DNA of 64,000 nt, taken from positions 799,707 to 863,706 of the forward strand of contig NZ_KE136354.1 in NCBI RefSeq assembly GCF_000406945.1, given 5' to 3'. The notes beneath the pieces were generated by a model. The model was not told where the DNA came from, did no database searches, and worked only from the letters and a program-made list of their open reading frames with translations. Made by a program: the position numbers and the translations under genes. This document shows, one piece after another, positions 10,364-45,187 of this stretch (position 1 is its first letter; each line of letters opens with the position of its first letter). The stretch is from Enterococcus dispar ATCC 51266 (GTDB taxonomy: Bacteria > Bacillota > Bacilli > Lactobacillales > Enterococcaceae).

Positions 10364-10392
10364 TTGACAAGTGTGGGTTTGTCACCTATACT
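10364..10392 (+). promoter_or_regulatory. Sigma-A promoter of the alaS T-box transcript
   Basis: TTGACA at 10364-10369 and TATACT at 10387-10392 with an ideal 17-base spacer. Transcription would begin near 10399, just before T-box stem I. Confidence 0.85.
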
Positions 10393-10398
10393 TTGTAA

Positions 10399-10616
10399 GG
10401 AAAAAGGATATGACCAGACAGCTTCTTTGTTACAGAAAGCTTTTGATTGCTGAGAAAAAAGCACAAATCTGTTTGTGGTTGCTCCCTTTTGAATTTCAGT
10501 AGCAATACTGACGCAACTCTGCGTTATAGAGCTTAAGAGGTAATGAATGACATCATTGCAAACAAGGTGGTACCGCGGTTTTCGTCCTTGTCTTGCAGTG
10601 GTGTCTTATTTTTTTG
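10399..10616 (+). promoter_or_regulatory. T-box riboswitch, alanine (GCU specifier)
   Basis: The T-box sequence AAGGTGGTACCGCG is at 10564-10577. Stem I can be drawn: AAAAAGG (10401-10407) pairs with the CCCTTTT region at 10484-10490, and CCAGACAG (10413-10420) pairs with CTGTTTGTGG. This leaves an internal loop whose 3' strand shows GCT at 10481-10483, a good Ala specifier codon. The terminator is GACATCATTGC...AAGG (10549-10567) pairing with CCTTGT...GTGTC (10585-10604), then TTATTTTTTT. Uncharged tRNA-Ala would favour the antiterminator and turn on alaS. Confidence 0.93.
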
Positions 10617-34638: not shown

Positions 34639-35214
34639 ATGAAGATAATTCAAAAATTTTTGGTCAGCGTAAAAGCTGGTTTCCTGCAAATATGGCATGA
34701 TTTTGCTAGTTGGGCAGAAGCAAATCAACGAAAAGCGCTTTTGACGGTTTTAGGTCTATTGCTTGGGGTTACGCTTTTTTCTGCTTCGATGATAGTGGCG
34801 GTAGCACACATTCGCCAATCCGAATATACCGAACTTTTAGCACCAACCATCAGTAGTAAAAAAATTAAACTTTTTGCTTATGGTAGTGAGGATCAAGAAA
34901 TAAAAAATACGAATGCTATTTCGGTTATGTTTTCACCGCCTTATGGTGCACAATACGATAAAGTGATGCAAACATTAGGTGGAAAACAAGGGGCCGAACT
35001 AAATCGTACGTTTTATTACTATCCTTTAGTGTATGACACCCAAAATGTAACCCAAAAATATCGGATTGATCCCAATAAAGTAACATTCATCTTCTTTGAA
35101 AAGGGTGTTGAAAAGAATCGCTTTGAAGTAGAAGATCTGACCGATTATACAGATGAATTTATTCCAGAATTGAACCGACTGCCAATGTGGAATATTAAAG
35201 ACTTAGACGAATAA
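34639..35214 (+). CDS. Hypothetical single-pass membrane protein with outside domain
   Basis: A 191-residue protein. After a short cytoplasmic amphipathic stretch (KIIQKFLVSVKAGFLQIWHDF), one membrane segment covers about 33-55 (ALLTVLGLLLGVTLFSASMIVAVA). About 135 residues then lie probably outside the membrane, with a mixed polar, aromatic composition and no cysteines. No family is recognised. AGGAGC is upstream of ATG 34639; the in-frame start at 34606 is less likely. It is followed by the promoter of the trp leader, so it is a separate unit. Confidence 0.6.
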   Translation: MKIIQKFLVSVKAGFLQIWHDFASWAEANQRKALLTVLGLLLGVTLFSASMIVAVAHIRQSEYTELLAPTISSKKIKLFAYGSEDQEIKNTNAISVMFSPPYGAQYDKVMQTLGGKQGAELNRTFYYYPLVYDTQNVTQKYRIDPNKVTFIFFEKGVEKNRFEVEDLTDYTDEFIPELNRLPMWNIKDLDE

Positions 35215-35248
35215 TCTGATTGAATTTTCTGGAAATTGAAAATTAGCC

Positions 35249-35277
35249 TTGACGCCTGAATTTTTCTGCGGTATTCT
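35249..35277 (+). promoter_or_regulatory. Promoter of the Trp leader / trpXYZ operon
   Basis: TTGACG at 35249-35254 and TATTCT at 35272-35277, separated by 17 bases, give a start near 35284, a few bases before the leader peptide ribosome site. Confidence 0.8.
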
Positions 35278-35310
35278 TAATTACAACAAAAACAAACGAG
35301 GTGAGCCATC

Positions 35311-35370
35311 ATGAAACTATTTACTACAACCCAAGGAACTTTATTAACATGGCAATTTTGGCGTAGATAG
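35311..35370 (+). CDS. Tryptophan leader peptide
   Basis: A 19-codon open frame with a strong ribosome site (GAGGTGA at 35298-35304) encodes MKLFTTTQGTLLTWQFWRR and stops at TAG 35368-35370. Trp codons lie at 35350-35352 and 35359-35361, close to the end. It precedes a tryptophan-type ABC transporter, and the base after its stop begins a set of competing hairpins, so I infer a ribosome-sensed attenuator. Too short to be found by ordinary gene calling. Confidence 0.8.
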   Translation: MKLFTTTQGTLLTWQFWRR

Positions 35371-35524
35371 TTGTATTGATGGATTTTTCCATAGATACAA
35401 CTTTTTAGAGAACTCTAAAACTTGTATCTATGCTGGCAATATTGAGATGATTCCGCATAGAGACAATCTCTATGCGGATTTTGTTTACTTAAAGCAATTT
35501 CCGTAGGGGGAAATTGCTTTTTTT
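35371..35524 (+). promoter_or_regulatory. Trp attenuator: competing hairpins plus tandem terminators
   Basis: Five segments can pair in exclusive ways. Segment 1 is TTGTATTGATGG at 35371-35382, 2 is CCATAGATACAA at 35389-35400, 3 is TTGTATCTATGC at 35422-35433, 4 is CCGCATAGAGACAA at 35453-35466 and 5 is TCTCTATGCGG at 35467-35477. Pairs 1:2, 2:3, 3:4 and 4:5 are all nearly perfect; 4:5 is followed by ATTTTGTTT. A second, classic terminator has AAAGCAATTTCC (35491-35502) with GGAAATTGCTTT (35509-35520) and more T's. Inferred logic: a ribosome at the stop codon masks 1, so 2:3 and then 4:5 form and transcription ends. A ribosome stalled earlier on Trp leaves 1 free, so 1:2 and 3:4 form and reading continues. 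Confidence 0.75.
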
Positions 35525-35557
35525 CATCTCAAAATTATATCTTAGGAGGAAATAAAA

Positions 35558-36598
35558 ATGAAAAATAAGGGATTAATGTACACAGTTATGGCATTGGGAA
35601 TTCTTCTGATTGGTTTTTTAGGCTTCCAAATTTTAACAGGGGCAAAAGATGATTCGGCAAAAGATACACCAACAGTTAAAGAAAAAATTCATACTGTTGG
35701 TGTTTTACAATTTGTCAGTCATCCAGCTTTAGATCAAATCTATGAAGGCGTCAAAGAAGGATTGAAAGAAGCTGGCTATGAAGAAGGCAAAAACTTAAAA
35801 ATTAATTTTCAAAATGGTCAAGCAGATCAAAGTAAACTTGATACTATGAGTAAACAATTAATTAATGATAAAGCAGACGTTTTAGTGGGAATTGCAACAC
35901 CAGCTGCTCAAGCATTGGCAAATGCCACGACAGATATTCCGATTGTATTAGGCGCTGTCACTGATCCAGAAGGGGCCGGACTGGTAGCAAGTAATGAAAA
36001 TCCCGGTGGTAACATTACGGGAGTTTCCGATCAACCACCAGTTGCCTCTATTATTGAATTAGCACATAAATTATTACCCGATGCCAAAAAAGTCGGTCTT
36101 TTATATTCTTCTTCTGAGATGAATTCCAAATTTCAAACCGGTCAAGCAGAAGCTGCCGCAAAAAAACTGGGGTTAGAAGTGGAACGAAAAGCAGTAACAT
36201 CAACCAATGAAGTAGCACAAGCAGTTCAAGTTTTATCCCAATCAGTGGATTTTATCTTTATTCCCAATGACAATACGGTTGCCAACGCGATGGAAACCGT
36301 TAGTCAAGAAGCCGATAAAAATAATGTTCCCGTTTTTCCCTCGGTAGATACCATGGTGGAACAAGGTGGTTTAGCAACAATTGGCATTAACCAAAAAGAA
36401 TTAGGGGTAAAAACTGGGGAGATGGTCGCTGAAATTTTAGCAGGTAAATCCAAACCTGCTGATACACCGGTTTATACATTTACAGACGGGGATACGATTA
36501 TTAATGAAGATCAGTTGGCAAAATTCCATTTAACTTTACCGGCAGATTTAAAAGATAGTGCCAAGTTAGTGGAAACAGTTAAAGGAGACAGCAAATAA
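35558..36598 (+). CDS. trpX: Tryptophan ABC transporter, substrate-binding protein (TrpX-like)
   Basis: A 346-residue solute-binding protein of the ABC_sub_bind (DUF534) group used for aromatic amino acid uptake. It starts with a hydrophobic segment (about 8-27) and has the type I fold signature HTVGVLQFVSHPALDQIYEGV and VGIATPAAQALAN. The lipobox cysteine expected of a lipoprotein is missing (GFLGFQILTGAKD), so the protein is probably held by its uncleaved N-terminal anchor. The Trp leader upstream supports tryptophan as substrate. AGGAGG precedes the ATG. The permease gene starts one base after its stop. Confidence 0.88.
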   Translation: MKNKGLMYTVMALGILLIGFLGFQILTGAKDDSAKDTPTVKEKIHTVGVLQFVSHPALDQIYEGVKEGLKEAGYEEGKNLKINFQNGQADQSKLDTMSKQLINDKADVLVGIATPAAQALANATTDIPIVLGAVTDPEGAGLVASNENPGGNITGVSDQPPVASIIELAHKLLPDAKKVGLLYSSSEMNSKFQTGQAEAAAKKLGLEVERKAVTSTNEVAQAVQVLSQSVDFIFIPNDNTVANAMETVSQEADKNNVPVFPSVDTMVEQGGLATIGINQKELGVKTGEMVAEILAGKSKPADTPVYTFTDGDTIINEDQLAKFHLTLPADLKDSAKLVETVKGDSK

Positions 36599-36599
36599 A

Positions 36600-37481
36600 A
36601 TGATTATTTCAACCATTGGACAAGGGCTTTTATGGTCCTTACTAGGAATAGGTATTTATTTAACTTACCGTATTTTAAATTTTCCTGATATGACAACTGA
36701 AGGAACGTTTCCCTTAGGTGGCGCTGTTTGTGTAACAGCAATTACGAGTGGTATCCCGCCACTAGTAGCGACTTTATTGGGAGTGTTAGCTGGAGTGGCA
36801 GCGGGTTTTGTAACGGGAATTTTATTTACTAAAGGAAAAATCCCAGTCATTTTAGCGGGTATCTTAGTGATGTCTGGGCTCAATTCCGTCATTTTATTTG
36901 TCATGAAGAGTCCAAATAAGGGATTGAGTAATTTTCCCCGCATCCAAACATTTTTTACCAATTTAAATCTACCTAATTATTTTGATATTGTCATTCTTGG
37001 ATTAATCGCTGTGATTGTGACCATACTTTTTGTACTTTTTTTCATTAATACAGAATTAGGACAAGCCTATATTGCAACGGGTGATAACGAGGTAATGGCC
37101 CGCTCTTTAGGGATTAAAACCGATCGCATGAAAATCTTGGGATTGACTGTTTCGAATGGTGTTATTGCACTTTCTGGTGCATTGATTTCACAAAATGACG
37201 GATACGCCGACGTCTCAAAAGGAACAGGTGTGATTGTTATTGGACTTGCTTCTATCATCATCGGTGAAGTTCTATTTGGAGAGTTAGCCTTTTTAGAGCG
37301 CTTAGTGGCAGTAGTGGTAGGGAGTATTATTTATCAAGCGATTATCACCTTAATTATTTATTTAGGCTTTGATACAACGTACTTGAAAATTTTCTCTTCT
37401 GCAATTTTAGCAATTTGTCTAATGATTCCAACGTTAAAAGAAAAGCTGAATTTAAAAACTGGGTTGGAAAAGGAGGCGTAG
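36600..37481 (+). CDS. trpY: Tryptophan ABC transporter, permease (TrpY-like)
   Basis: A 293-residue membrane protein of the branched-chain-type (LivH-like) permease family with about eight segments. Recognisable pieces are FPDMTTEGTFPLGGAVC near the N-terminus and GDNEVMARSLGIKTDRMKILGL, the cytoplasmic EAA-type loop that meets the ATPase. The gene is between trpX (one base away) and the ATPase gene (three bases away), so all three are one unit. Confidence 0.88.
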   Translation: MIISTIGQGLLWSLLGIGIYLTYRILNFPDMTTEGTFPLGGAVCVTAITSGIPPLVATLLGVLAGVAAGFVTGILFTKGKIPVILAGILVMSGLNSVILFVMKSPNKGLSNFPRIQTFFTNLNLPNYFDIVILGLIAVIVTILFVLFFINTELGQAYIATGDNEVMARSLGIKTDRMKILGLTVSNGVIALSGALISQNDGYADVSKGTGVIVIGLASIIIGEVLFGELAFLERLVAVVVGSIIYQAIITLIIYLGFDTTYLKIFSSAILAICLMIPTLKEKLNLKTGLEKEA

Positions 37482-37484
37482 TCA

Positions 37485-38249
37485 GTGAGTGTTTTAACAA
37501 TTAAAAAGGCCGTAAAAAAAATCAAGAATGGCGTTAATGACGAACGCATAATTTTAAACAACGTCAGTTTAACTTTAAATTCAGGTGACTTTGTCACAAT
37601 TGTTGGCGGCAATGGGGCAGGCAAGAGCACTTTATTTAATACGGTTACTGGAACACACTTTTTAAACAGTGGCCAAGTCTTTTTAAAAGATGAAAATGTA
37701 ACAGGATACGGTGAAGAAAAAAGAGCAAAATATTTAGGACGTGTTTTTCAAGATCCCAAAATGGGGACTGCACCGCGCATGACAGTCGCAGAAAATCTTC
37801 TTTTAGCTGAACGTAGAGGGCAAAAGAGGACTTTACGTCCCCGCAAGCTTAACGAGCGCAAAGAATTTTTTAAAGCTTTATGTGGGAAAGTTGGCAATGG
37901 ACTAGAAGATCAGCTGGATACTCCCACAGGACACTTATCTGGGGGGCAACGCCAAGCATTGAGCCTTTTAATGGCAACCATTCAAAGACCTGAACTTCTG
38001 TTATTAGATGAACATACAGCTGCTTTAGATCCTAAGACATCAAAAAACATTATGGCTTTGACCAATGATTTAGTAAAAGAAAACAATTTAACGTGTATGA
38101 TGATTACGCATCAAATGGAAGACGCTTTAAAATACGGCAATCGTTTGCTACTTTTGAAAAAAGGCGAAATTGTTAAAGACTTAGATCAGATTGAAAAAGC
38201 TAAACTGACTCTCTCTGATTTACTGCTCTTTTTCGAAGAAGAATTGTGA
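37485..38249 (+). CDS. trpZ: Tryptophan ABC transporter, ATP-binding protein (TrpZ-like)
   Basis: A 254-residue ATPase with Walker A VGGNGAGKSTL, Q-loop FQDPKMGTAP, signature LSGGQRQALSL, Walker B LLLLDEHTAALDP (Glu present, followed by HTA in place of the usual PTA) and the switch His in MMITHQ. The start is GTG at 37485, nine bases after AAGGAGG. It powers the TrpY permease. The operon ends here, and a new promoter for the aro leader begins 40 bases on. Confidence 0.9.
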   Translation: MSVLTIKKAVKKIKNGVNDERIILNNVSLTLNSGDFVTIVGGNGAGKSTLFNTVTGTHFLNSGQVFLKDENVTGYGEEKRAKYLGRVFQDPKMGTAPRMTVAENLLLAERRGQKRTLRPRKLNERKEFFKALCGKVGNGLEDQLDTPTGHLSGGQRQALSLLMATIQRPELLLLDEHTAALDPKTSKNIMALTNDLVKENNLTCMMITHQMEDALKYGNRLLLLKKGEIVKDLDQIEKAKLTLSDLLLFFEEEL

Positions 38250-38287
38250 AAACTGATGAAAATATTTGCAATTCTTCCAAAAACGTA

Positions 38288-38316
38288 TTGACAGCTTAAT
38301 AAAATCAATCTATACT
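38288..38316 (+). promoter_or_regulatory. Promoter of the Tyr/Phe leader / aro operon
   Basis: TTGACA at 38288-38293 and TATACT at 38311-38316 with a 17-base spacer, a near-consensus sigma-A promoter, with start near 38323. Confidence 0.88.
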
Positions 38317-38350
38317 TAACAACATCTTAATCAGTTCGGAGGACTTTTTT

Positions 38351-38407
38351 ATGTTAGAAAAAAGCAAACCACAACTGAATAATTATTACTTTGGCTATTT
38401 TAGATAG
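38351..38407 (+). CDS. Tyrosine/phenylalanine leader peptide
   Basis: An 18-codon frame behind GGAGGA (38338-38343) encodes MLEKSKPQLNNYYFGYFR and stops at TAG 38405-38407. Three Tyr and two Phe codons crowd the last seven sense codons. It precedes the operon that makes Phe and Tyr and sits before a hairpin set built like that of the Trp leader, so I infer that it senses charged tRNA-Tyr and tRNA-Phe. Confidence 0.82.
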   Translation: MLEKSKPQLNNYYFGYFR

Positions 38408-38597
38408 TTTGTATTCATGAAAAACATGGATACAAACCAAACTGTTTGTATCTATGATGGCTAAGGGATTTTGTAATGACTTTAAAGCCACGTAGATCAA
38501 GAATCTATAGTGGCTCTTTTTATTCCCATCGGAAAATATATTTTTTCGCATTAGGTGTTCACTGTAGATTGTTGTATCTTAGGTGAACACTTTTTTT
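38408..38597 (+). promoter_or_regulatory. Tyr/Phe attenuator: competing hairpins plus tandem terminators
   Basis: Segment 1 is TTTGTATTCATG at 38408-38419, 2 is CATGGATACAAA at 38425-38436, 3 is TTTGTATCTATG at 38445-38456 extended by ATGGCT to 38462, 4 is AGCCACGTAGAT at 38486-38497 and 5 is ATCTATAGTGGCT at 38503-38515. Pairs 1:2, 2:3, 3:4 (ATCTAT...TGGCT with AGCCA...GTAGAT) and 4:5 are all possible; 4:5 is followed by CTTTTT. A second terminator has GTGTTCAC (38555-38562) with GTGAACAC (38583-38590) and seven T's. The layout copies the Trp attenuator 3 kb upstream, and the same stall-or-finish logic is inferred. Confidence 0.78.
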
Positions 38598-38634
38598 GTA
38601 CCCATCAGCTTTCAATAATTAGGGAGTGATAAAA

Positions 38635-39501
38635 ATGGAAGTTACTGGTTATACGCGTTTGGCAGGTTTAATCGCAAAACCCGCTCGCCATAGCATTTCG
38701 CCGTTAATGCATAATACAGCTTTTAAGGCAAATAACATCGATGCTGTGTATTTATCTTTTGAAGTAGAAAAAGAGCAATTACCTCAGTTTATAAAAGGTA
38801 TTTCAGCGTTTGGTATGATTGGCGTAAATGTTTCAATGCCCTATAAGCTGGCAGTCATTCCTTATCTGGATGAATTGAGTGAAGCGGCAACTTTAATTGG
38901 TGCTGTGAATACCATCGTTCCGCAAAAAGATGGGCGCTTAGTCGGACACAATACCGATGGCAGTGGTTTTATGCGCAGTTTGGTTGATAGTAATGTGGAG
39001 ATTATTGGAGAAGAGATTACAGTAATCGGTACAGGTGGTGCGGCCACGGCGATTTGTGTCCAAGCTGCTTTAGACGGGGTTCAAAAAATCAATGTCTTTA
39101 ACCGTCAAGGTGAGTTCTTTACTCAGAAACAGCAAAAAATTAATGAGATTGCCCAAAAATCACAGTGTACATTATCCTTAACAGATTTAGCCGATGGTAA
39201 AGCCTTAAATAAAGCGCTGGGAAATAGCAAACTGTTAGTAAATGCAACTGATGTTGGTATGAAACCAAATGAAGCTCAGACACCAATTCAGGATTTTAGT
39301 GCATTTCATGATGATTTAGCCGTATATGATGTGATTTATAATCCGCGGGAAACAAAACTGATTCAAATTGCTAAAGAAAAAGGATTAAAGACTGTCAATG
39401 GTTTAGGTATGTTGCTGTATCAGGGCACGTATGCTTTTGAATTATGGACAGGTAAAAAAATGCCATTAGAAATCGTTAAGCCACTCGTGGCTAACAGTTA
39501 A
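38635..39501 (+). CDS. aroE: Shikimate 5-dehydrogenase
   Basis: NADPH-dependent reduction of 3-dehydroshikimate to shikimate. The 288-residue protein has the substrate site KPARHSISPLMHN (Ser-x-Ser) and GVNVSMPYKLAVIPYLDE with the catalytic Lys, then NTDGSGF and the NADP-binding VIGTGGAATAICVQA. ATG 38635 follows AGGGAG; the GTG at 38626 would abut it. First gene of the eight-gene aromatic operon. Confidence 0.96.
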   Translation: MEVTGYTRLAGLIAKPARHSISPLMHNTAFKANNIDAVYLSFEVEKEQLPQFIKGISAFGMIGVNVSMPYKLAVIPYLDELSEAATLIGAVNTIVPQKDGRLVGHNTDGSGFMRSLVDSNVEIIGEEITVIGTGGAATAICVQAALDGVQKINVFNRQGEFFTQKQQKINEIAQKSQCTLSLTDLADGKALNKALGNSKLLVNATDVGMKPNEAQTPIQDFSAFHDDLAVYDVIYNPRETKLIQIAKEKGLKTVNGLGMLLYQGTYAFELWTGKKMPLEIVKPLVANS

Positions 39502-39517
39502 AAAGGAGAATATGAAA

Positions 39518-40543
39518 ATGATTGTAATTATGAAACCAGGTGCTACCAAAGAGCAAGTTGAATTAGTGGTCAAACGCATTCAAAAAGAAGGTCTAGATGT
39601 CAATATTGATCAAGGTACTGAACATATTGTCATCGGCTTAAAAGGTGACGTAAGAGGGATTCAAGATGTCCCGTTTAATACTTACGACGGGGTAGAAAAA
39701 ACACTAAAAATTTCGAATACTTACAAATTAACTTCACGGGAATTTCACCCTGGGGATACGGTCGTTGATGTGGATGGTGTCAAAGTTGGTAATGGTAATT
39801 TTGTAACAATGGCTGGTCCATGTTCTATTGAAGGTTTAGAACAAATTCGCGAATGTGCCAAAATTGCCAAAGCTGGTGGGGCACAAATTTTACGTGGAGG
39901 CGCATTTAAACCACGTACCTCCCCTTATGCTTTTCAAGGGCTAGAAGAAGAAGGTTTAAAATACATTCGGCAAGCAGCTGATGAATTTGATATGAAAGTC
40001 ATCACAGAAGTAATGGATGAAGGCCATATTGAAATGGTAGCAAAATACAGCGACATTTTGCAAATTGGTGCGCGAAATATGCAAAATTACAAATTATTAC
40101 AAGCCGTTGGTAAAACAGGCAAACCGATTGGCTTAAAACGAGGGATTGCCGGCACAATTGATGAATGGTTAAATGCAGCTGAATACATTGCTGTCCAAGA
40201 TAAGTCGCAAGTTATTTTCATTGAACGAGGGATTAGAACATACGAGACAGCAACCCGCAATACTTTTGACTTATCTGCTGTCCCCTTAATTAAGAAGTTA
40301 AGTCATTTTCCAATTATTGTTGATCCAAGCCACGGAACTGGCGTTTGGGATCTTGTTACGCCAATGGCGCGAGCAGGGGTTGCTGCTGGAGCTGACGGTA
40401 TGATTGTTGAGATTCATCCTGATCCCCAAAATGCCTGGTCTGATGGACAACAGTCATTAAATGAAGCAAATTACTTAAAAATGATGCAAGAAGTGGATAT
40501 CTTGACAGCTGCCATGAAGCAAATTAAAGAAATCGAGGGCTAA
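39518..40543 (+). CDS. aroF: 3-deoxy-7-phosphoheptulonate (DAHP) synthase, type I-beta
   Basis: First committed step of the shikimate pathway, from PEP and erythrose 4-phosphate. The 341-residue protein has an N-terminal ferredoxin-like regulatory domain ([20 protein letters not shown]) and the I-beta barrel with [35 protein letters not shown] and VDPSHGTG. In the related Thermotoga enzyme such a domain gives feedback inhibition by Tyr and Phe; here that is inferred. ATG 39518 is preferred over 39512 on spacing from AAAGGAG (39502-39508). Confidence 0.96.
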
Positions 40544-40546
40544 CTC

Positions 40547-41611
40547 ATGCAAGTTAACTTAAAAGAACATTCCTACGAAATTCTGATTAAACGTGGCGCT
40601 TTAAAAGAGTTGGGGCGCTGGATTAATTCCTTATGGACGCCTCAAAAAATTGCCGTCATTACCGATACCAATGTGGCACCCCTTTATAGTCAAACTGTGA
40701 TGAAACAATTAACAGCTGCTGGACACGCACCGCATTTAGCGGTAGTGCCCGCAGGAGAAGCGAGTAAATCGTTGAAAACTGCAGCAGAATTATATGATTT
40801 TCTAGCAGAAGCAGGATTTACTCGCAGTGATGGTATTCTTGCACTAGGTGGGGGGGTAATTGGTGATCTAGCAGGATTTGTGGCTTCAACGTATATGCGG
40901 GGTATCCATTTTGTCCAAATTCCAACGACATTACTAGCGCAAGTAGATTCTAGCATCGGCGGCAAAACTGGAGTAAATACGAGTAAAGCAAAAAATCTGG
41001 TGGGAACTTTCAGTCAGCCTGCTGGCGTCTTAATCGATCCAAATGTTTTAGAGACATTAGAAATGCGACGGGTACGAGAAGGAATTGCCGAGATCATTAA
41101 ATCTGCGGCAATTGCAGATTTGCATTTATGGCAGCAATTAACCCAGTTAAAAGACGAAACAGATTTATTATATCACGCTGAAACAATTATCACTGCAGCT
41201 CTTGAAGTAAAGCGTCATGTCGTAGAAGAAGATGAATTTGATAATGGCATGCGTCTGATCTTAAACTTTGGGCATACCATTGGCCATGCCATTGAAAATA
41301 CGGCAGGATATGGGGTTGTTAGTCACGGAGAGGGTGTGGCTTTAGGAATGCTGAAAATTAATCAGGTCTCAGAAATAAAAGGTTTGACGCCTATGGGGAC
41401 CACAGCACAACTTAAAGAGATGATTATGAAATTTCATTTGCCAACAGAATTACCAAATTGGGATGAAAATGCCTTGTATCAAGCGATTACCCATGATAAA
41501 AAAGCACGAGGGACAAATTTGAAATTAATTTTATTAGCTGAAATTGGTCAAGCTAAAATTGTAGAAATCCCTTTAATAGAAATGAAAGATTATCTAAAGG
41601 AGGCGTTATAA
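40547..41611 (+). CDS. aroB: 3-dehydroquinate synthase
   Basis: Converts DAHP to 3-dehydroquinate with NAD+ and zinc. The 354-residue protein has the NAD-binding [18 protein letters not shown], the active-site [21 protein letters not shown] and the zinc ligands in [23 protein letters not shown] and [11 protein letters not shown]. It starts four bases after the aroF stop. The stop overlaps the aroC start by one base. Confidence 0.98.
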
Positions 41612-42777
41612 TGCGTTATTTAACAGCAGGAGAATCTCATGGCCCGGAACTAACGGCTATTATTGAAGGGCTACCAGCTGGTATGCCACTTTTAGCAGAA
41701 GATATTAATTTGGAATTGGCAAGACGGCAGGGCGGCTATGGACGAGGTGGTCGGATGAAAATTGAAAAAGATCAAGTACGGATTACCTCTGGTGTACGAC
41801 ATGGGAAAACATTGGGTTCACCTGTTACTTTGATTGTCGAAAATCGCGATTGGAAAAATTGGCAAACTGTTATGTCAGCCAAAGAAGTACCGGAAAAAGA
41901 GCAAAAATTACGACAAGTAACCCACCCAAGACCTGGTCATGCAGATCTAGTGGGAGGAATGAAATATCACCACGATGATTTACGAAATGTTTTGGAGCGT
42001 TCATCTGCCAGAGAAACTACAATGCGCGTAGCTATTGGAGCCATTGCCAAAAAATTATTAAAAGAATTAGAAATCGAAGTCGCAGGACATGTTACCGTTT
42101 TAGGTGGTATTAAAGCAGAAATTCCAGCAGAAATTAGTTTAGCGGAAGTAAAAAAACGTTCTGAAAAGTCTGAAGTGCGCGTGGTGGATGCAAGTGTTGA
42201 AACCCAAATGAAGCAACTGATAGATCAGACGAAAAAAAATGGCGATACTATCGGGGGCATTGTAGAGGTTTTAGTGGGAAATGTTCCAGCAGGACTGGGT
42301 AGTTATGTCCAATGGGATACAAAGCTAGATGCCAAATTAGCCCAAGCAATCGTTGGAATTAATGCTTTTAAAGGGGTAGAATTTGGCGTTGGTTTTGAAG
42401 CTGCTAATTTACCCGGCTCGAAAGTAATGGATGAAATTATTTGGACAAAAGAAGTCGGCTATCGGCGTAAAACCAATCATCTTGGTGGTTTTGAAGGTGG
42501 TATGACAAATGGTGAGACTATTATCGTCAAAGGGGTTATGAAACCAATTCCAACTTTATACAAGCCTTTAATGAGTGTCGACATTCAGACCAAAGAACCT
42601 TATAAGGCGAGTGTAGAACGCTCCGATAGCACGGCAGTTCCTGCGGCGAGTGTGGTTGCTGAAAATGTGGTGGCTACTGTTTTAGCAGAGGAAATTTTAG
42701 CCAAGTTTTCTAGTGATTCGTTTGAAGAGTTAAAAGAAGCTGTTATGAACTATCGCCAATATGTTAAAAACTTTTAG
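41611..42777 (+). CDS. aroC: Chorismate synthase
   Basis: Turns EPSP into chorismate using reduced FMN. The 388-residue protein has the family blocks [61 protein letters not shown] and [23 protein letters not shown] is upstream inside aroB. It is the branch-point enzyme feeding TyrA and PheA in the same operon. Confidence 0.98.
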
Positions 42778-42790
42778 GAGGTCTATTAAG

Positions 42791-43882
42791 ATGGAGCAAA
42801 AAGTTTTAATCGTTGGTTTAGGATTAATTGGTTCATCGCTTGCCTTAGCAATTAAAAAAGAGCACCCAAAAGTTATGATTACAGGTTTTGATTTACATGA
42901 AAAAACCTGTGAGATTGCTTTACAAAAAGGAGTTATTTCTGAGGTTGCGTGCAATTTTGCCCAGAGCGCAGCACTTGCAGATATCATCATTTTAGCGGTA
43001 CCGGTTTTTAAAACGATTGCTTATTTAGAAGAACTCGCACAACTTTCACTAAAAGAAAATGTGATTGTGACAGACGTTGCAAGCACCAAAGAGATGATTA
43101 TGCATACGGCTAAGACTTTACCCTTTGCATTTATTGGGGGTCATCCCATGGCAGGCTCGCATAAATCGGGAATAAAAGCAGCAGACAGCAACTTATTTGA
43201 AAACGCCTACTACATTATTACCAACCAAAAAGAATCCCAGAACAAAGTAGTACTTTTAGAGACGCTACTGGCAGGCACAAAAGCAAAATTTGTTGCACTT
43301 CATCCGACCGAGCATGACCAAATTACAGCCATGCTAAGTCATTTACCTCATATAATTGCTGCTGCATTGGTAACGCAAGGAGATCTTTTTAATCAAGACT
43401 ATCCGCGAGCAAAGCAATTAGCCGCAGGGGGATTCCGGGATATTACACGAATTGCTTCTTCTGATCCGGTGATGTGGACAGAAATTTTACTAAGTAATCA
43501 AAAAGCTATTTTACACCAGTTAGATAATTGGCAACTAGAGGTTAGTCATATCAAAGAATGGGTAGCAGCAGCGGACAAAAAAGCTATTTTCAATTTCTTT
43601 GACCAAGCCAAAGATAATCGTGATCGTTTACCTGTTCATAAAAACGGTGCAATCCCTGCCTTTTATGATCTTTACCTCGATATCCCCGATGAACCAGGTG
43701 TAATTGCTGAAGTAACCGGACTTTTAGGACGTCATCAAATCAACCTGATTAATCTGAAAATTCAGGAAACAAGAGAAGACATTAATGGCATTTTACAAAT
43801 TAGTTTTCGTAATGAAAATGATTTACAACGGGCACAAGGATGCCTTTTAGAAAATACAAATTATCCTATCCGCATAAAATAA
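42791..43882 (+). CDS. tyrA: Prephenate dehydrogenase with C-terminal ACT domain
   Basis: Oxidative decarboxylation of prephenate towards tyrosine. The 363-residue protein has the NAD-binding LIVGLGLIGSSLALAIKK and catalytic-region segments IGGHPMAGSHKSGIKAA and HDQITAMLSHLPH. A C-terminal ACT domain at about 293-361 (LDIPDEPGVIAEVTGLLGRHQINLINLKI) probably binds an aromatic amino acid for feedback. Start 42791 lies nine bases after AGGAGG, while the in-frame start at 42761 lies inside aroC. The chorismate mutase is not fused to it and is not encoded in this operon. Confidence 0.95.
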   Translation: MEQKVLIVGLGLIGSSLALAIKKEHPKVMITGFDLHEKTCEIALQKGVISEVACNFAQSAALADIIILAVPVFKTIAYLEELAQLSLKENVIVTDVASTKEMIMHTAKTLPFAFIGGHPMAGSHKSGIKAADSNLFENAYYIITNQKESQNKVVLLETLLAGTKAKFVALHPTEHDQITAMLSHLPHIIAAALVTQGDLFNQDYPRAKQLAAGGFRDITRIASSDPVMWTEILLSNQKAILHQLDNWQLEVSHIKEWVAAADKKAIFNFFDQAKDNRDRLPVHKNGAIPAFYDLYLDIPDEPGVIAEVTGLLGRHQINLINLKIQETREDINGILQISFRNENDLQRAQGCLLENTNYPIRIK

Positions 43883-43894
43883 AAGGAGGCCGCT

Positions 43895-45187
43895 ATGAAA
43901 TTATTACAAGCACCAAACGGCTTATATGGCAGTATTACTGTTCCTGCAGACAAATCAATTTCGCATCGCAGTATTATGTTTGGCGCCTTATCAATTGGTC
44001 AAACAACAATTAAAAATTTTTTACGCGCACAAGACTGTTTAAGTACATTAAATGCATTTAAAAAACTTGGTGTTCCCATTACAGATGATGGTACTACAAT
44101 TACAGTAACTGGTGTCGGTTTCAATGGTTTAACCAAAAGCCCGGCAGCAATTGATATTGGTAATTCTGGTACAACAATTCGCTTAATGATGGGCATTTTA
44201 GCAGGACAAAACTTTACTACAACCTTGTTTGGCGACGAATCACTTAATCGGCGGCCAATGGAGAGAGTAATGGCACCGTTACGCCAAATGGGAGCACACC
44301 TTACGGGTAAAGAGGATAGTGAATTTCCACCGATTACAATTCAAGGTACAAAAGAGCTAGTATCAATTGACTATCAAATGCCAGTAGCGAGTGCTCAAGT
44401 CAAATCGGCAATTATTTTTGCGGCTTTACAAGCAAAAGGTACGTCAACGATTATTGAAAAAGAGATTTCCCGTAATCATACCGAAGAAATGATTCGGCAA
44501 TTTGGTGGCAAAATTATGACAGACGGCCGAGAAATTAGACTAACAGGACCACAGACTTTGAGCGCTCAAAATGTTATAGTACCAGGCGATATCTCTTCTG
44601 CTGCATTCTTTTTAGTGGCTGCTGCAATTACGCCTGATAGTCAGTTATACCTTAAAAATGTGGGCATGAACCCCACCCGAACCGGAATTATTGATGTTTT
44701 AACCCAAATGGGGGCTAAATTAGCAGTAGAAAATATTGATGCAGAAAACCAAGCAGCTGATTTAAAAATTGAGACCACTAACCTTGAGGCAATTACGATT
44801 GAAGGGGAGATTATCCCCCGTTTAATTGATGAACTACCAATTATTGCTCTACTTGCCACCCAAGCGAATGGTCAAACAATTATCAAAAATGCTGAAGAGT
44901 TAAAAGTAAAAGAAACCAATCGAATCGATGCAACCGCTGAAGAATTACAAAAAATGGGTGCCGATATTATTCCCACTGCCGATGGCTTAATTATTAATGG
45001 ACCGACGCCGTTAAAAGGGGCTGAAGTCTCAAGTCGTGGCGATCATCGCATTGGCATGATGTTGCAAATCGCGGCTTTAATTGCCGAGGGCGTCACCACG
45101 CTGCAGTTTCCAGAAGCTATTAATATTTCCTACCCCAATTTTTTCAACGATGTTAAAAAAATCATAGCAGGTGAAAATAATGCGTAG
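43895..45187 (+). CDS. aroA: 5-enolpyruvylshikimate-3-phosphate synthase
   Basis: Joins PEP and shikimate 3-phosphate. The 430-residue protein keeps the active-site blocks [49 protein letters not shown] and KVKETNRI. Its glyphosate region reads GNSGTT, where class I enzymes have GNAGTA. This is consistent with the glyphosate-tolerant class II group common in Firmicutes, though tolerance is not proven. AAAGGAGG is upstream. The end overlaps aroK by eight bases. Confidence 0.97.

Follow-up and report, generated by a model that had tools for sequence, protein, structure and literature searches.

In the trp, his and pheA leader-peptide attenuators of E. coli, pairing of segments 2 and 3 (2:3) forms the antiterminator and pairing of 3 and 4 (3:4) the terminator. 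As proposed here for Enterococcus, a ribosome that stalls at codons for the regulated amino acid picks between the two. Among Firmicutes, the Bacillus cereus group, Peptostreptococcaceae and Erysipelotrichales have leader peptides with a run of His codons and a terminator upstream of hisZ or the his operon (PMC9413887, PMC2965389), and in the accessible parts of these papers no link to the trpB motif is drawn. The trpB motif (RF04312) was put forward in 2024 as a strong riboswitch candidate (Nucleic Acids Res, PMC11109978; SRC-39-1). In the accessible part of that paper it has over 900 representatives, lies upstream of trpB and of an 'uncharacterized ABC transporter', and is described as two hairpins with an antiterminator in the right shoulder of P1; the authors leave a classic attenuator open, and an ORF is unmentioned there. 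A second RNA, RF02863 (Enterococcus sRNA 2410), is filed in Rfam as a small RNA, with a structure in which what we call segments 1 and 4 are paired around 2:3. For trpXYZ of Streptococcus suis, the accessible text of PMC9382623 describes a T-box riboswitch.

Here we analysed a window of 64,000 nucleotides of Enterococcus dispar ATCC 51266, in which two leaders stand before neighbouring operons. Very probably they are members of a single family, ribosome-mediated transcription attenuators built from six RNA segments. In each, the short peptide ORF and the folding RNA behind it appear to act jointly as a sensor of tryptophan or of tyrosine/phenylalanine supply. The first leader, with Trp codons, precedes trpXYZ:

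35249..35277, + strand: promoter-like site TTGACG-17-TATTCT of the Trp leader (consensus scan 9/12; not by itself functional evidence)
35311..35370, + strand: Trp leader peptide ORF MKLFTTTQGTLLTWQFWRR with Shine-Dalgarno sequence, AUG 35311, stop 35368-35370 (sequence, uORF scan, WQxWRR-stop ends in relatives)
35357..35369, + strand: segment 1, last codons plus stop, pairs with 4 (folding, 1:4 covariation)
35370..35382, + strand: segment 2, pairs with 3 (folding, 2:3 covariation)
35389..35401, + strand: segment 3, pairs with 2 or 4 (folding, covariation)
35422..35437, + strand: segment 4, pairs with 1, 3 or 5 (folding, covariation)
35451..35466, + strand: segment 5, terminator 5' arm, pairs with 4 (antiterminator) or 6 (terminator) (folding, covariation)
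35468..35479, + strand: segment 6, terminator 3' arm (folding, 5:6 pairing in alignment)
35388..35489, + strand: RF04312 (trpB motif) match (61.5 bits, cut-off 59)
35452..35478, + strand: attenuator terminator hairpin (terminator scan)
35491..35520, + strand: second terminator-like hairpin (terminator scan)
35558..36598, + strand: trpX, tryptophan ABC transporter substrate-binding protein (NF041285 454.3 bits, cut-off 390; best PDB relative 3lft)
36600..37481, + strand: trpY, ABC permease (under every NCBIfam cut-off; named from position)
37485..38249, + strand: trpZ, ABC ATPase (all 25 families listed under cut-off; named from position)

RF04312 is the same RNA as segments 3 to 6 of this leader. 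Its match starts at segment 3 and so covers neither the peptide nor segments 1 and 2, and the RNA published as a riboswitch candidate is read here as part of an attenuator. The uncharacterized transporter behind the motif is TrpX at this locus. The second leader, with Tyr and Phe codons, precedes an aro operon:

38288..38316, + strand: promoter-like site TTGACA-17-TATACT of the Tyr/Phe leader (consensus scan 11/12)
38351..38407, + strand: Tyr/Phe leader peptide ORF MLEKSKPQLNNYYFGYFR, AUG 38351, stop 38405-38407 (sequence, uORF scan, relatives)
38389..38406, + strand: segment 1 (folding, 1:4 covariation)
38407..38419, + strand: segment 2 (folding, 2:3 covariation)
38425..38437, + strand: segment 3 (folding, covariation)
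38444..38464, + strand: segment 4 (folding, covariation)
38484..38499, + strand: segment 5, terminator 5' arm (folding, covariation)
38503..38516, + strand: segment 6, terminator 3' arm (folding, 5:6 pairing in alignment)
38391..38582, + strand: RF02863 (Enterococcus sRNA 2410) match (78.3 bits, cut-off 61)
38423..38525, + strand: weak RF04312 match (38.2 bits, below cut-off 59)
38487..38514, + strand: attenuator terminator hairpin (terminator scan)
38556..38589, + strand: second terminator-like hairpin (terminator scan)
38626..39501, + strand: aroE, shikimate dehydrogenase (TIGR00507 229 bits, cut-off 200.2)
39512..40543, + strand: DAHP synthase (NF006421 478.7 bits, cut-off 335)
40547..41611, + strand: aroB (TIGR01357 379.7 bits, cut-off 305)
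41611..42777, + strand: aroC, chorismate synthase (TIGR00033 443 bits, cut-off 212.2)
42761..43882, + strand: prephenate dehydrogenase (NF005107 516.4 bits, cut-off 414)
43895..45187, + strand: aroA (TIGR01356 422.3 bits, cut-off 287.25)

This leader is the same RNA as RF02863. Its RF04312 match is full length and sub-cut-off, and it is treated as a sister type and not as a member of RF04312.

We propose that when Trp or Tyr/Phe is short, the ribosome stalls on those codons and covers segment 1, so that 2:3 would pair and segment 4 would be left free. Segment 4 would then pair with the terminator's 5' arm (4:5), and transcription would therefore continue into trpXYZ or aro. When the amino acid is plentiful, the ribosome would reach the stop codon and cover segments 1 and 2; 3:4 would pair, the terminator 5:6 would form and transcription would consequently stop. 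If there is no translation, 1:4 might wrap around 2:3 and the terminator might form, which is the least certain step of the mechanism. The peptide would thus be the sensor, and the network of segments a reusable actuator. The likeness to the E. coli attenuators is one of mechanism, with a different use of the segments: here 3:4 would free the terminator, 4:5 would be the antiterminator, and segment 1 also pairs with 4. The T-box of S. suis shares with the Trp leader the operon, the signal (Trp supply) and the outcome (antitermination on shortage), but it binds tRNA directly, without translation (accessible text of PMC9382623). No T-box (RF00230) was found in the window at the gathering score, nor at E 1 in 35200-38700; of 21 matches in the genome, 14 are over the cut-off, and none lies at 835-838 kb of contig C1.

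In an alignment of 97 leaders, all five possible pairings (1:4, 2:3, 3:4, 4:5 and 5:6) co-vary, the terminator included. The model used to build the alignment contains only 3:4 (95.3% paired) and 5:6 (91.4%), and 1:4, 2:3 and 4:5 lie outside it. The number of cells with double changes was 82 for 1:4 (22.3 in shuffles), 80 for 2:3 (20.1) and 24 for 4:5 (14.3), values reached in none of 500 shuffles. Other measures were weaker: for 1:4, 9 of 500 shuffles matched its 9 double-change pairs and 25 its number of pair types, and for 4:5 five shuffles reached its 5 pairs. When 1:4 was slid by +2, there were equally many double-change pairs and more pair types, but only 41.8% of the cells paired. By eye, the most conserved columns fall in the pairing segments, and no further conserved unpaired core was seen in this alignment.

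Both leaders have mutually exclusive helices that include an intrinsic terminator, as judged from folding and covariation, and at full length they fold with 1:4 and 2:3 (z -6.9 and -6.0). For the full-length Tyr/Phe leader, with the edge of the ribosome placed for Tyr12 to Gly15, the predicted pairing was 0.93-0.98 for 2:3, 0.59-0.61 for 4:5 and 0.04-0.05 for 5:6. With the ribosome at the stop codon it was 1.00 for 3:4 and 0.72 for 5:6, and without a ribosome 0.81 for 1:4 and 0.72 for 5:6; a ribosome stalled at codon 16 or 17, the final ones for Tyr and Phe, mostly lets the terminator form. In the equilibrium fold of the Trp leader past the terminator, 5:6 is favoured (0.68-0.69) at every ribosome position, so antitermination would need 4:5 to form before segment 6 is made. 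The modelled folding of the Trp leader thus supports a switch only before the terminator is complete. At that stage and without a ribosome, the Trp RNA gave 0.75 for 4:5 and 0.00 for 1:4, which counts against the no-translation step, and the Tyr/Phe RNA gave 0.42 and 0.25. With the ribosome at the stop codon, 3:4 of the Trp RNA before segment 6 varied with the assumed footprint (0.49 at P+14, 0.78 at P+16). Each leader also has a second terminator beyond the first, as the first-pass annotation had noted; these hairpins are unaccounted for by the six-segment mechanism, and our script for second terminators is crude, as it fused the two hairpins of the Trp leader into one.

Of the RF04312 hits that reach the Rfam cut-off, 58 were fetched, and just upstream of every one an SD-led short ORF with Trp codons ends; these ORFs were picked blind to composition. 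In the non-redundant set of 110 leaders, 108 carry an ORF, which contains Trp in 94, at least four Tyr/Phe near the end in 13 and HHH in 1. The other two (L131 and L135) have, by eye, a Trp-coded end with a stop past the limit of the scan. Six shifted controls gave ORFs in only 4-16 of the 110 places, with Trp in 1-6. Over all 174 loci an ORF was found in 154 and contained Trp, Tyr/Phe or HHH in 148; 21 loci (the strongest L165, 48.3 bits) were left out of the counts, and 148 of the 153 accepted as leaders have a short ORF with a ribosome-binding site before the RNA switch. The peptides are about 11-26 codons long, carry the Trp or Tyr/Phe codons near their end, and end at segment 1. No description of them was found in the literature searched, with earlier comparative studies of aromatic regulons in subscription journals out of reach.

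The first-pass annotation had seen in the two leaders one RNA module that was duplicated and recoded, on the basis of shared words. These words are in place: TAGATAG at 35364-35370 and 38401-38407, TTGTATT opening what it called the first segments (from 35371 and from 38409), GATACAA in both of its second segments and TTGTATCTATG in both third ones. The pairwise likeness of the two leaders alone is only modest, and shared words alone would not settle kinship. Local alignment scored 27 against a shuffle mean of 16.4 and was equalled by 2 of 2000 shuffles, or by 6 of 2000 without the codons, and as a proof of kinship it was dropped as too weak alone. Kinship is instead indicated because RF04312, an Rfam model built by others, ranks the Trp leader first (61.5 bits, E 3e-8) and the Tyr/Phe leader second (38.2 bits, E 0.001; curated cut-off 59) in the whole 2.8 Mb genome, and because layout, covariation and a common tree hold in many other genomes. 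No further convincing copies were found in this genome with RF04312 or our own model (L003-L008 are weak or antisense).

The expected family of modular peptide-sensing attenuators was borne out by the search of other genomes, in which codons and downstream genes were recorded. At E 0.01, RF04312 has matches in 104 of the 105 genomes of the family, and at E 0.001 it has them in 211 of the 395 genomes of the order; the similarity is neither confined to this genome nor limited to chance TTGTAT words. A Tyr/Phe leader pattern matches 96 of the 395 genomes, and 58 of the 70 loci inspected are leaders; this pattern encodes the FSYFR end of its 58 leaders, and only 14 of the 153 were found without it. 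The expectation that annotation would miss the family needs correcting for the RNA, which is already in Rfam under the unrelated names RF04312 and RF02863. In a tree without the codon region, one branch parts Trp from Tyr/Phe leaders, which upholds common ancestry. A local tandem duplication in this lineage is rejected, as both types are spread over the order. Because both occur in several of its families, they should have parted long ago unless they were transferred. A switch of segment 1 between Trp and Tyr/Phe codons, in either direction, is thus supported as an old and not a local event, unless types were transferred, and would have given two old subfamilies. In the genomes searched outside Lactobacillales, a set without the Fusobacteria that are stated in print to carry the motif, RF04312 matched 5 class-level and 2 phylum-level genomes, and only G437 (Tyr/Phe) and G457 (His) look leader-like; L067, L068, L070, L073 and L074 were discarded as leaders after inspection. 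The His-coded version (HHH; L062) precedes a hisZ-like gene in one genome outside the order and is of the same sort as the described Firmicutes His attenuators. It remains a single case because, among 5 genomes of its family, only its own matched. Our own model, used here without RF04312, was unmatched at 10 of 80 named TrpX loci (3 Bifidobacterium, 5 lactobacilli, 1 Streptococcaceae MAG and 1 Enterococcus).

Trp leaders precede trpX-like and trpB genes, and Tyr/Phe leaders precede aro, DAHP synthase and TrpX-like genes, so that in the Trp, Tyr/Phe and His types the codons fit the amino acid made or taken up. Leader type agrees with the transporter: at the position published as selecting between Trp and Tyr, all 82 Trp-led binding proteins have Gln and all 33 Tyr/Phe-led ones have Tyr. 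Leader type tracks binding-protein subfamily in one change on the tree, and among the scored proteins all 13 Trp-led ones lie above the TrpX equivalog cut-off and all 15 Tyr/Phe-led ones below. One motif hit whose leader ORF was not picked by the scan (L136) precedes an oligopeptide-binding protein.

TnaC-like arrest occurs at the stop codon. If the peptide were such a nascent-chain sensor of free tryptophan, arrest there would mask segments 1 and 2 and lock the switch in its OFF state at high Trp, and WQxWRR-like ends are indeed common among Trp leaders. We consider this improbable, as only the Trp positions are conserved, with varied residues between and after them (WRN, WRF, WKS, WQVD, WQSR), the codons for the terminal RR and FR pair with segment 4, which accounts for these ends, and related leaders bear Tyr/Phe or His at the same place, as codon sensing predicts. 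Convergence, in which unrelated attenuators became alike since each segment must match several others, would fit the modest pairwise similarity and the sub-cut-off RF04312 score of the Tyr/Phe leader. It is very improbable, given that CATAGATAC/GTATCTATGnTGGC are largely common in the same segment order over tens of genomes where any complementary set would serve, that the two leaders take the top two ranks in this genome under an outside model, and that both serve one pathway and related transporters.

The published idea of a metabolite riboswitch with an incidental ORF has in its favour the candidate's strong rating and its two hairpins with an antiterminator in P1, as given in the accessible part of PMC11109978, where a classic attenuator was itself kept open. 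We find it highly unlikely: the 58 hits all have a Trp-codon ORF, its codons switch to Tyr/Phe or His where the downstream genes change, and competing helices account for the conserved segments, with no extra unpaired core seen by eye. Hardly credible is the reading of the aro leader as primarily a trans-acting small RNA, as the RF02863 label would have it on a match of 78.3 bits at 38391-38582. The leader sits between a promoter-like site and aroE and contains coding sequence and a terminator, its type is found before aroE, aroC, DAHP synthase and binding-protein genes, and a terminated leader transcript would itself appear as a short RNA. A secondary role in trans may exist.

Translation-coupled attenuation, in our reading, would answer what a published orphan riboswitch candidate does and unite it with one that Rfam lists as an sRNA. 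Extended further, and here we see an even chance of being right, the whole RF04312 class would be a reprogrammable translation-sensing module rather than a riboswitch, one six-segment actuator in which the codons of segment 1 set at least three specificities (Trp, Tyr/Phe and His) and predict the transporter substrate. The two leader types would be a natural example of an RNA switch in which the sensor was recoded and the actuator kept, with an independent check on the recoding, since codon type agrees with the residue tied by crystal structures to the Trp/Tyr choice. If it is true that codon type tracks substrate, leader codons could be used to annotate transporters. They would be a cheap predictor of substrates for TrpX-like transporters, of which the Tyr/Phe-led proteins now fall just below a database threshold named for tryptophan.

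The window carries two leaders, the Trp leader before trpXYZ and the Tyr/Phe leader before an aro operon. Each has its own promoter-like site and, downstream of a short leader ORF, two terminator-like hairpins.

35249, promoter-like site of the Trp leader
35491-35520, second terminator-like hairpin of the Trp leader
35558-38249, trpXYZ, preceded by a 19-codon ORF with the end ...TWQFWRR*
38288, promoter-like site of the Tyr/Phe leader
38556-38589, second terminator-like hairpin of the Tyr/Phe leader
38626 onward, aroE-DAHP synthase-aroB-aroC-prephenate dehydrogenase-aroA operon, preceded by an 18-codon ORF with the end ...NNYYFGYFR*

Both second hairpins lie 3' of the regulated terminator, and an unregulated second terminator would be expected to cut the ON state. 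A crude scan found one in 57/96 Trp-type and 19/71 Tyr/Phe-type leaders; some of the hairpins overlap and at least one merger occurred, which makes these counts rough.

The first-pass annotation had listed short words shared by the two leaders, and all of them are found in both. Their local alignment is modest (equalled in 2 of 2000 shuffles, or 6 of 2000 with the codons left out). That the likeness is more than chance words is confirmed by RF04312, the Rfam trpB motif, a model built by others and independent of this analysis, which places the two leaders at ranks 1 and 2 over the whole 2.8 Mb genome (E 3e-8 and 0.001). At the Rfam gathering score, RF04312 is found on the Trp leader and RF02863 (Enterococcus sRNA 2410) on the Tyr/Phe leader, which RF04312 also matches with a score under its cut-off. 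T-box matches number 21 in this genome, none of them at either leader. One, at 10389-10592 (+), scores 91.6 bits, just under the curated cut-off of 93.

The proposed further copies do exist in other genomes. RF04312 matches 104 of the 105 Enterococcaceae genomes (E 0.01) and, at E 0.001, 211/395 of the Lactobacillales, 19/348 of the class and 4/348 of the phylum; 14 of these 19 and two of the four belong to the order again. A pattern of 17 bases taken from the Tyr/Phe leader matches 96 of the 395 genomes of the order (backward-read control, 11). Among others, named genomes of Enterococcus, Vagococcus, Tetragenococcus, Desemzia, Carnobacterium, Alkalibacterium and Lapidilactobacillus have a Trp leader before trpX. 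It stands at 70 of 80 named TrpX loci, with a second leader about 3 kb further on in 29 of the 80, within the available flanking sequence; among these named loci, Enterococcus sp. MJM12 comes closest to the window (88% in TrpX). Bifidobacterium (L226, L227, L248) has close TrpX relatives (56-61% identity) and the leader model is unmatched within 2.5 kb on either side, as though the switch had been left behind when the transporter moved.

We read 174 loci with RF04312 matches, of which 148 were top-scoring or picked for spread and second copies, a non-random sample. Inspection discarded 21 (wrong strand, weak or no leader; the strongest at 48.3 bits) and kept 153. The best SD-led ORF ending at most 32 bases from the motif was chosen, with the ribosome-binding site and the start codon as the sole criteria. 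Such an ORF was found in 148 of the 153 loci; it contains Trp in 133 of them, four or more Tyr/Phe close to its end in 14 and HHH in one. Among 110 non-redundant loci, 108 have an ORF (94 Trp, 13 Tyr/Phe, 1 HHH); at six shifted control positions only 4 to 16 of 110 do, with Trp in 1 to 6. With nothing discarded, 154 of the 174 loci have an ORF, and 148 have Trp, Tyr/Phe or HHH. All 58 loci at or over the Rfam cut-off have a Trp-coded leader. Frequent ends are WQNWRR*, WQSWRR* and WQSR*, and the residues near the Trp codons vary.

Both leaders accommodate six pairing segments, 5:6 being the terminator, 4:5 the predicted antiterminator, and 1:4, 2:3 and 3:4 competing helices. A model of 40 leaders of both types was given only 3:4 and 5:6 as structure; searched against 100 of the 110 non-redundant leaders, it aligned 97 at E 1.2e-5 and lost L100, L110 and L144. 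The helices absent from the model still co-vary: 1:4 is paired in 82.1% of cells, with double changes in 9/13 pairs (82 such cells vs 22.3 shuffled), 2:3 in 89.8% (10/13; 80 vs 20.1) and 4:5 in 93.4% (5/7; 24 vs 14.3). Slid helices drop to 17-60%. Weaker measures are the numbers of double-changed pairs, that of 1:4 being equalled in 9 of 500 shuffles and by the helix slid by +2, and that of 4:5 in 5 of 500. The modelled helices 3:4 and 5:6 are paired in 95.3% and 91.4%. Segment 4 is nearly invariant and the peptide ends are fixed (CGT AGA TAG; AGC TAT TTT AGA TAG); both would be explained by the need for segment 4 to pair with three others, 1, 3 and 5.

Folded from the sensing codons onward, the RNA forms 1:4 enclosing 2:3, plus the terminator; from just inside segment 2, it forms 3:4 plus the terminator. 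When the ribosome edge is shifted along the Tyr/Phe leader, the calculation gives the expected switch: 2:3 and 4:5 but hardly any terminator at Tyr12 to Gly15, 3:4 plus terminator at the stop, and 1:4, 2:3 and terminator without a ribosome. Stalling at Tyr16 or Phe17 gives mostly terminator at full length. The Trp leader switches as expected only in RNA stopping short of segment 6, where a ribosome on Trp14 gives 2:3 at 0.89 and 4:5 at 0.75, and one at the stop gives 3:4 at 0.78 (longer footprint) or 0.49 (shorter); 4:5 is preferred in this RNA without a ribosome too. At full length the terminator wins at every position, which in this calculation would mean that the antiterminated state has to be kinetic. 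Covariation thus supports 1:4 as a clamp that would hold the OFF state when the leader is untranslated, but the folding calculation for Trp does not.

Downstream genes were named through representatives and likeness. After the 153 leaders stand 123 TrpX-like binding proteins in one cluster (three of them Tyr/Phe-led), trpB (9), aroE (6), aroB-like genes (4; the one scored lies below its cut-off), aroC (2) and a hisZ-like gene (1); the other 8 are single, short or not found. Of 70 loci read from the 17-base pattern, 58 are leaders, whose FSYFR end is partly built into the pattern. They precede TrpX-like genes (34), aroE (15; four of the 15 checked, all above the aroE cut-off), DAHP synthase (2), aroC (1), an aroB-like gene by resemblance only (1) and another binding-protein type, best likeness below cut-off (5). 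At L281, L283 and L285, Phe-rich leaders (FFFSYFRYSL*) precede a different binding-protein family. At L136 the motif precedes an oligopeptide-binding protein (best likeness Opp4A, below cut-off) and the scan picked no leader ORF; peptide uptake may be under Trp control there. L062 (G457, of the same class, not of the order) has four consecutive His codons before a hisZ-like gene and an RF04312 core score of 54.5 bits; the four other genomes searched from its family gave no match.

The binding proteins follow the leaders. On a quick tree of 115, of which 82 stand under Trp leaders and 33 under Tyr/Phe leaders after exclusion of near copies and an incomplete gene, leader type switches once. The best solved relative is 3lft for the TrpX of the window and 6hni for a Tyr/Phe-led protein; 3lft (SP1069) is described as binding Trp and 6hni (CD0873) Tyr, with Gln-284 and Tyr-279, respectively, at a named selectivity site (PMC6816091). 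At this site, position 279 in the window protein as counted along alignments, Gln is found in 82/82 Trp-led and Tyr in 33/33 Tyr/Phe-led proteins. At another site, which is Glu-263 in CD0873 and Ala in SP1069, 31/33 Tyr/Phe-led proteins have Ser and 78/82 Trp-led proteins Val/Ala. Among proteins scored against the TrpX equivalog (cut-off 390), all 13 Trp-led lie above (390.7 to 477.5) and all 15 Tyr/Phe-led below (269.4 to 384.2). By sequence, the TrpX-like proteins under Tyr/Phe leaders (L065, L069, L170 and the 34 pattern-found loci) are probably tyrosine or phenylalanine transporters.

A recoding of the peptide between Trp and Tyr/Phe had been suggested, and a codon-free leader tree agrees with it. 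The model aligned 72 of the 83 leaders supplied, and the 11 lost were all of the Tyr/Phe type. The tree, built from segment 2 onward, has 38 Trp leaders on one side of a single branch (support 99/98) and 33 Tyr/Phe leaders on the other; with the labels shuffled, about 24 changes are required. It has few columns (125) and a bootstrap that is not settled, and it resolves little of the inner order. On it, the His leader sits on a long branch on the Tyr/Phe side. The single branch suggests that recoding happened once in this sample, in which case it would predate the parting of the families of the order, or the types would have moved among families.

The trpB motif has been proposed as a strong riboswitch candidate, a classic attenuator being left possible (PMC11109978). 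His leader peptides are known from some Firmicutes (PMC9413887, PMC2965389), a T-box is known for trpX in Streptococcus suis (PMC9382623), and T-box specifiers have already been used for predicting transporter substrates (PMC2494555). A description of leader peptides of this family was not found in the literature searched. The mechanism class is ordinary; what is new is what becomes joined. With regulation predicted from sequence, an orphan riboswitch candidate and an RNA filed as an sRNA are brought together as two specificities of the same putative recodable leader-peptide attenuator.
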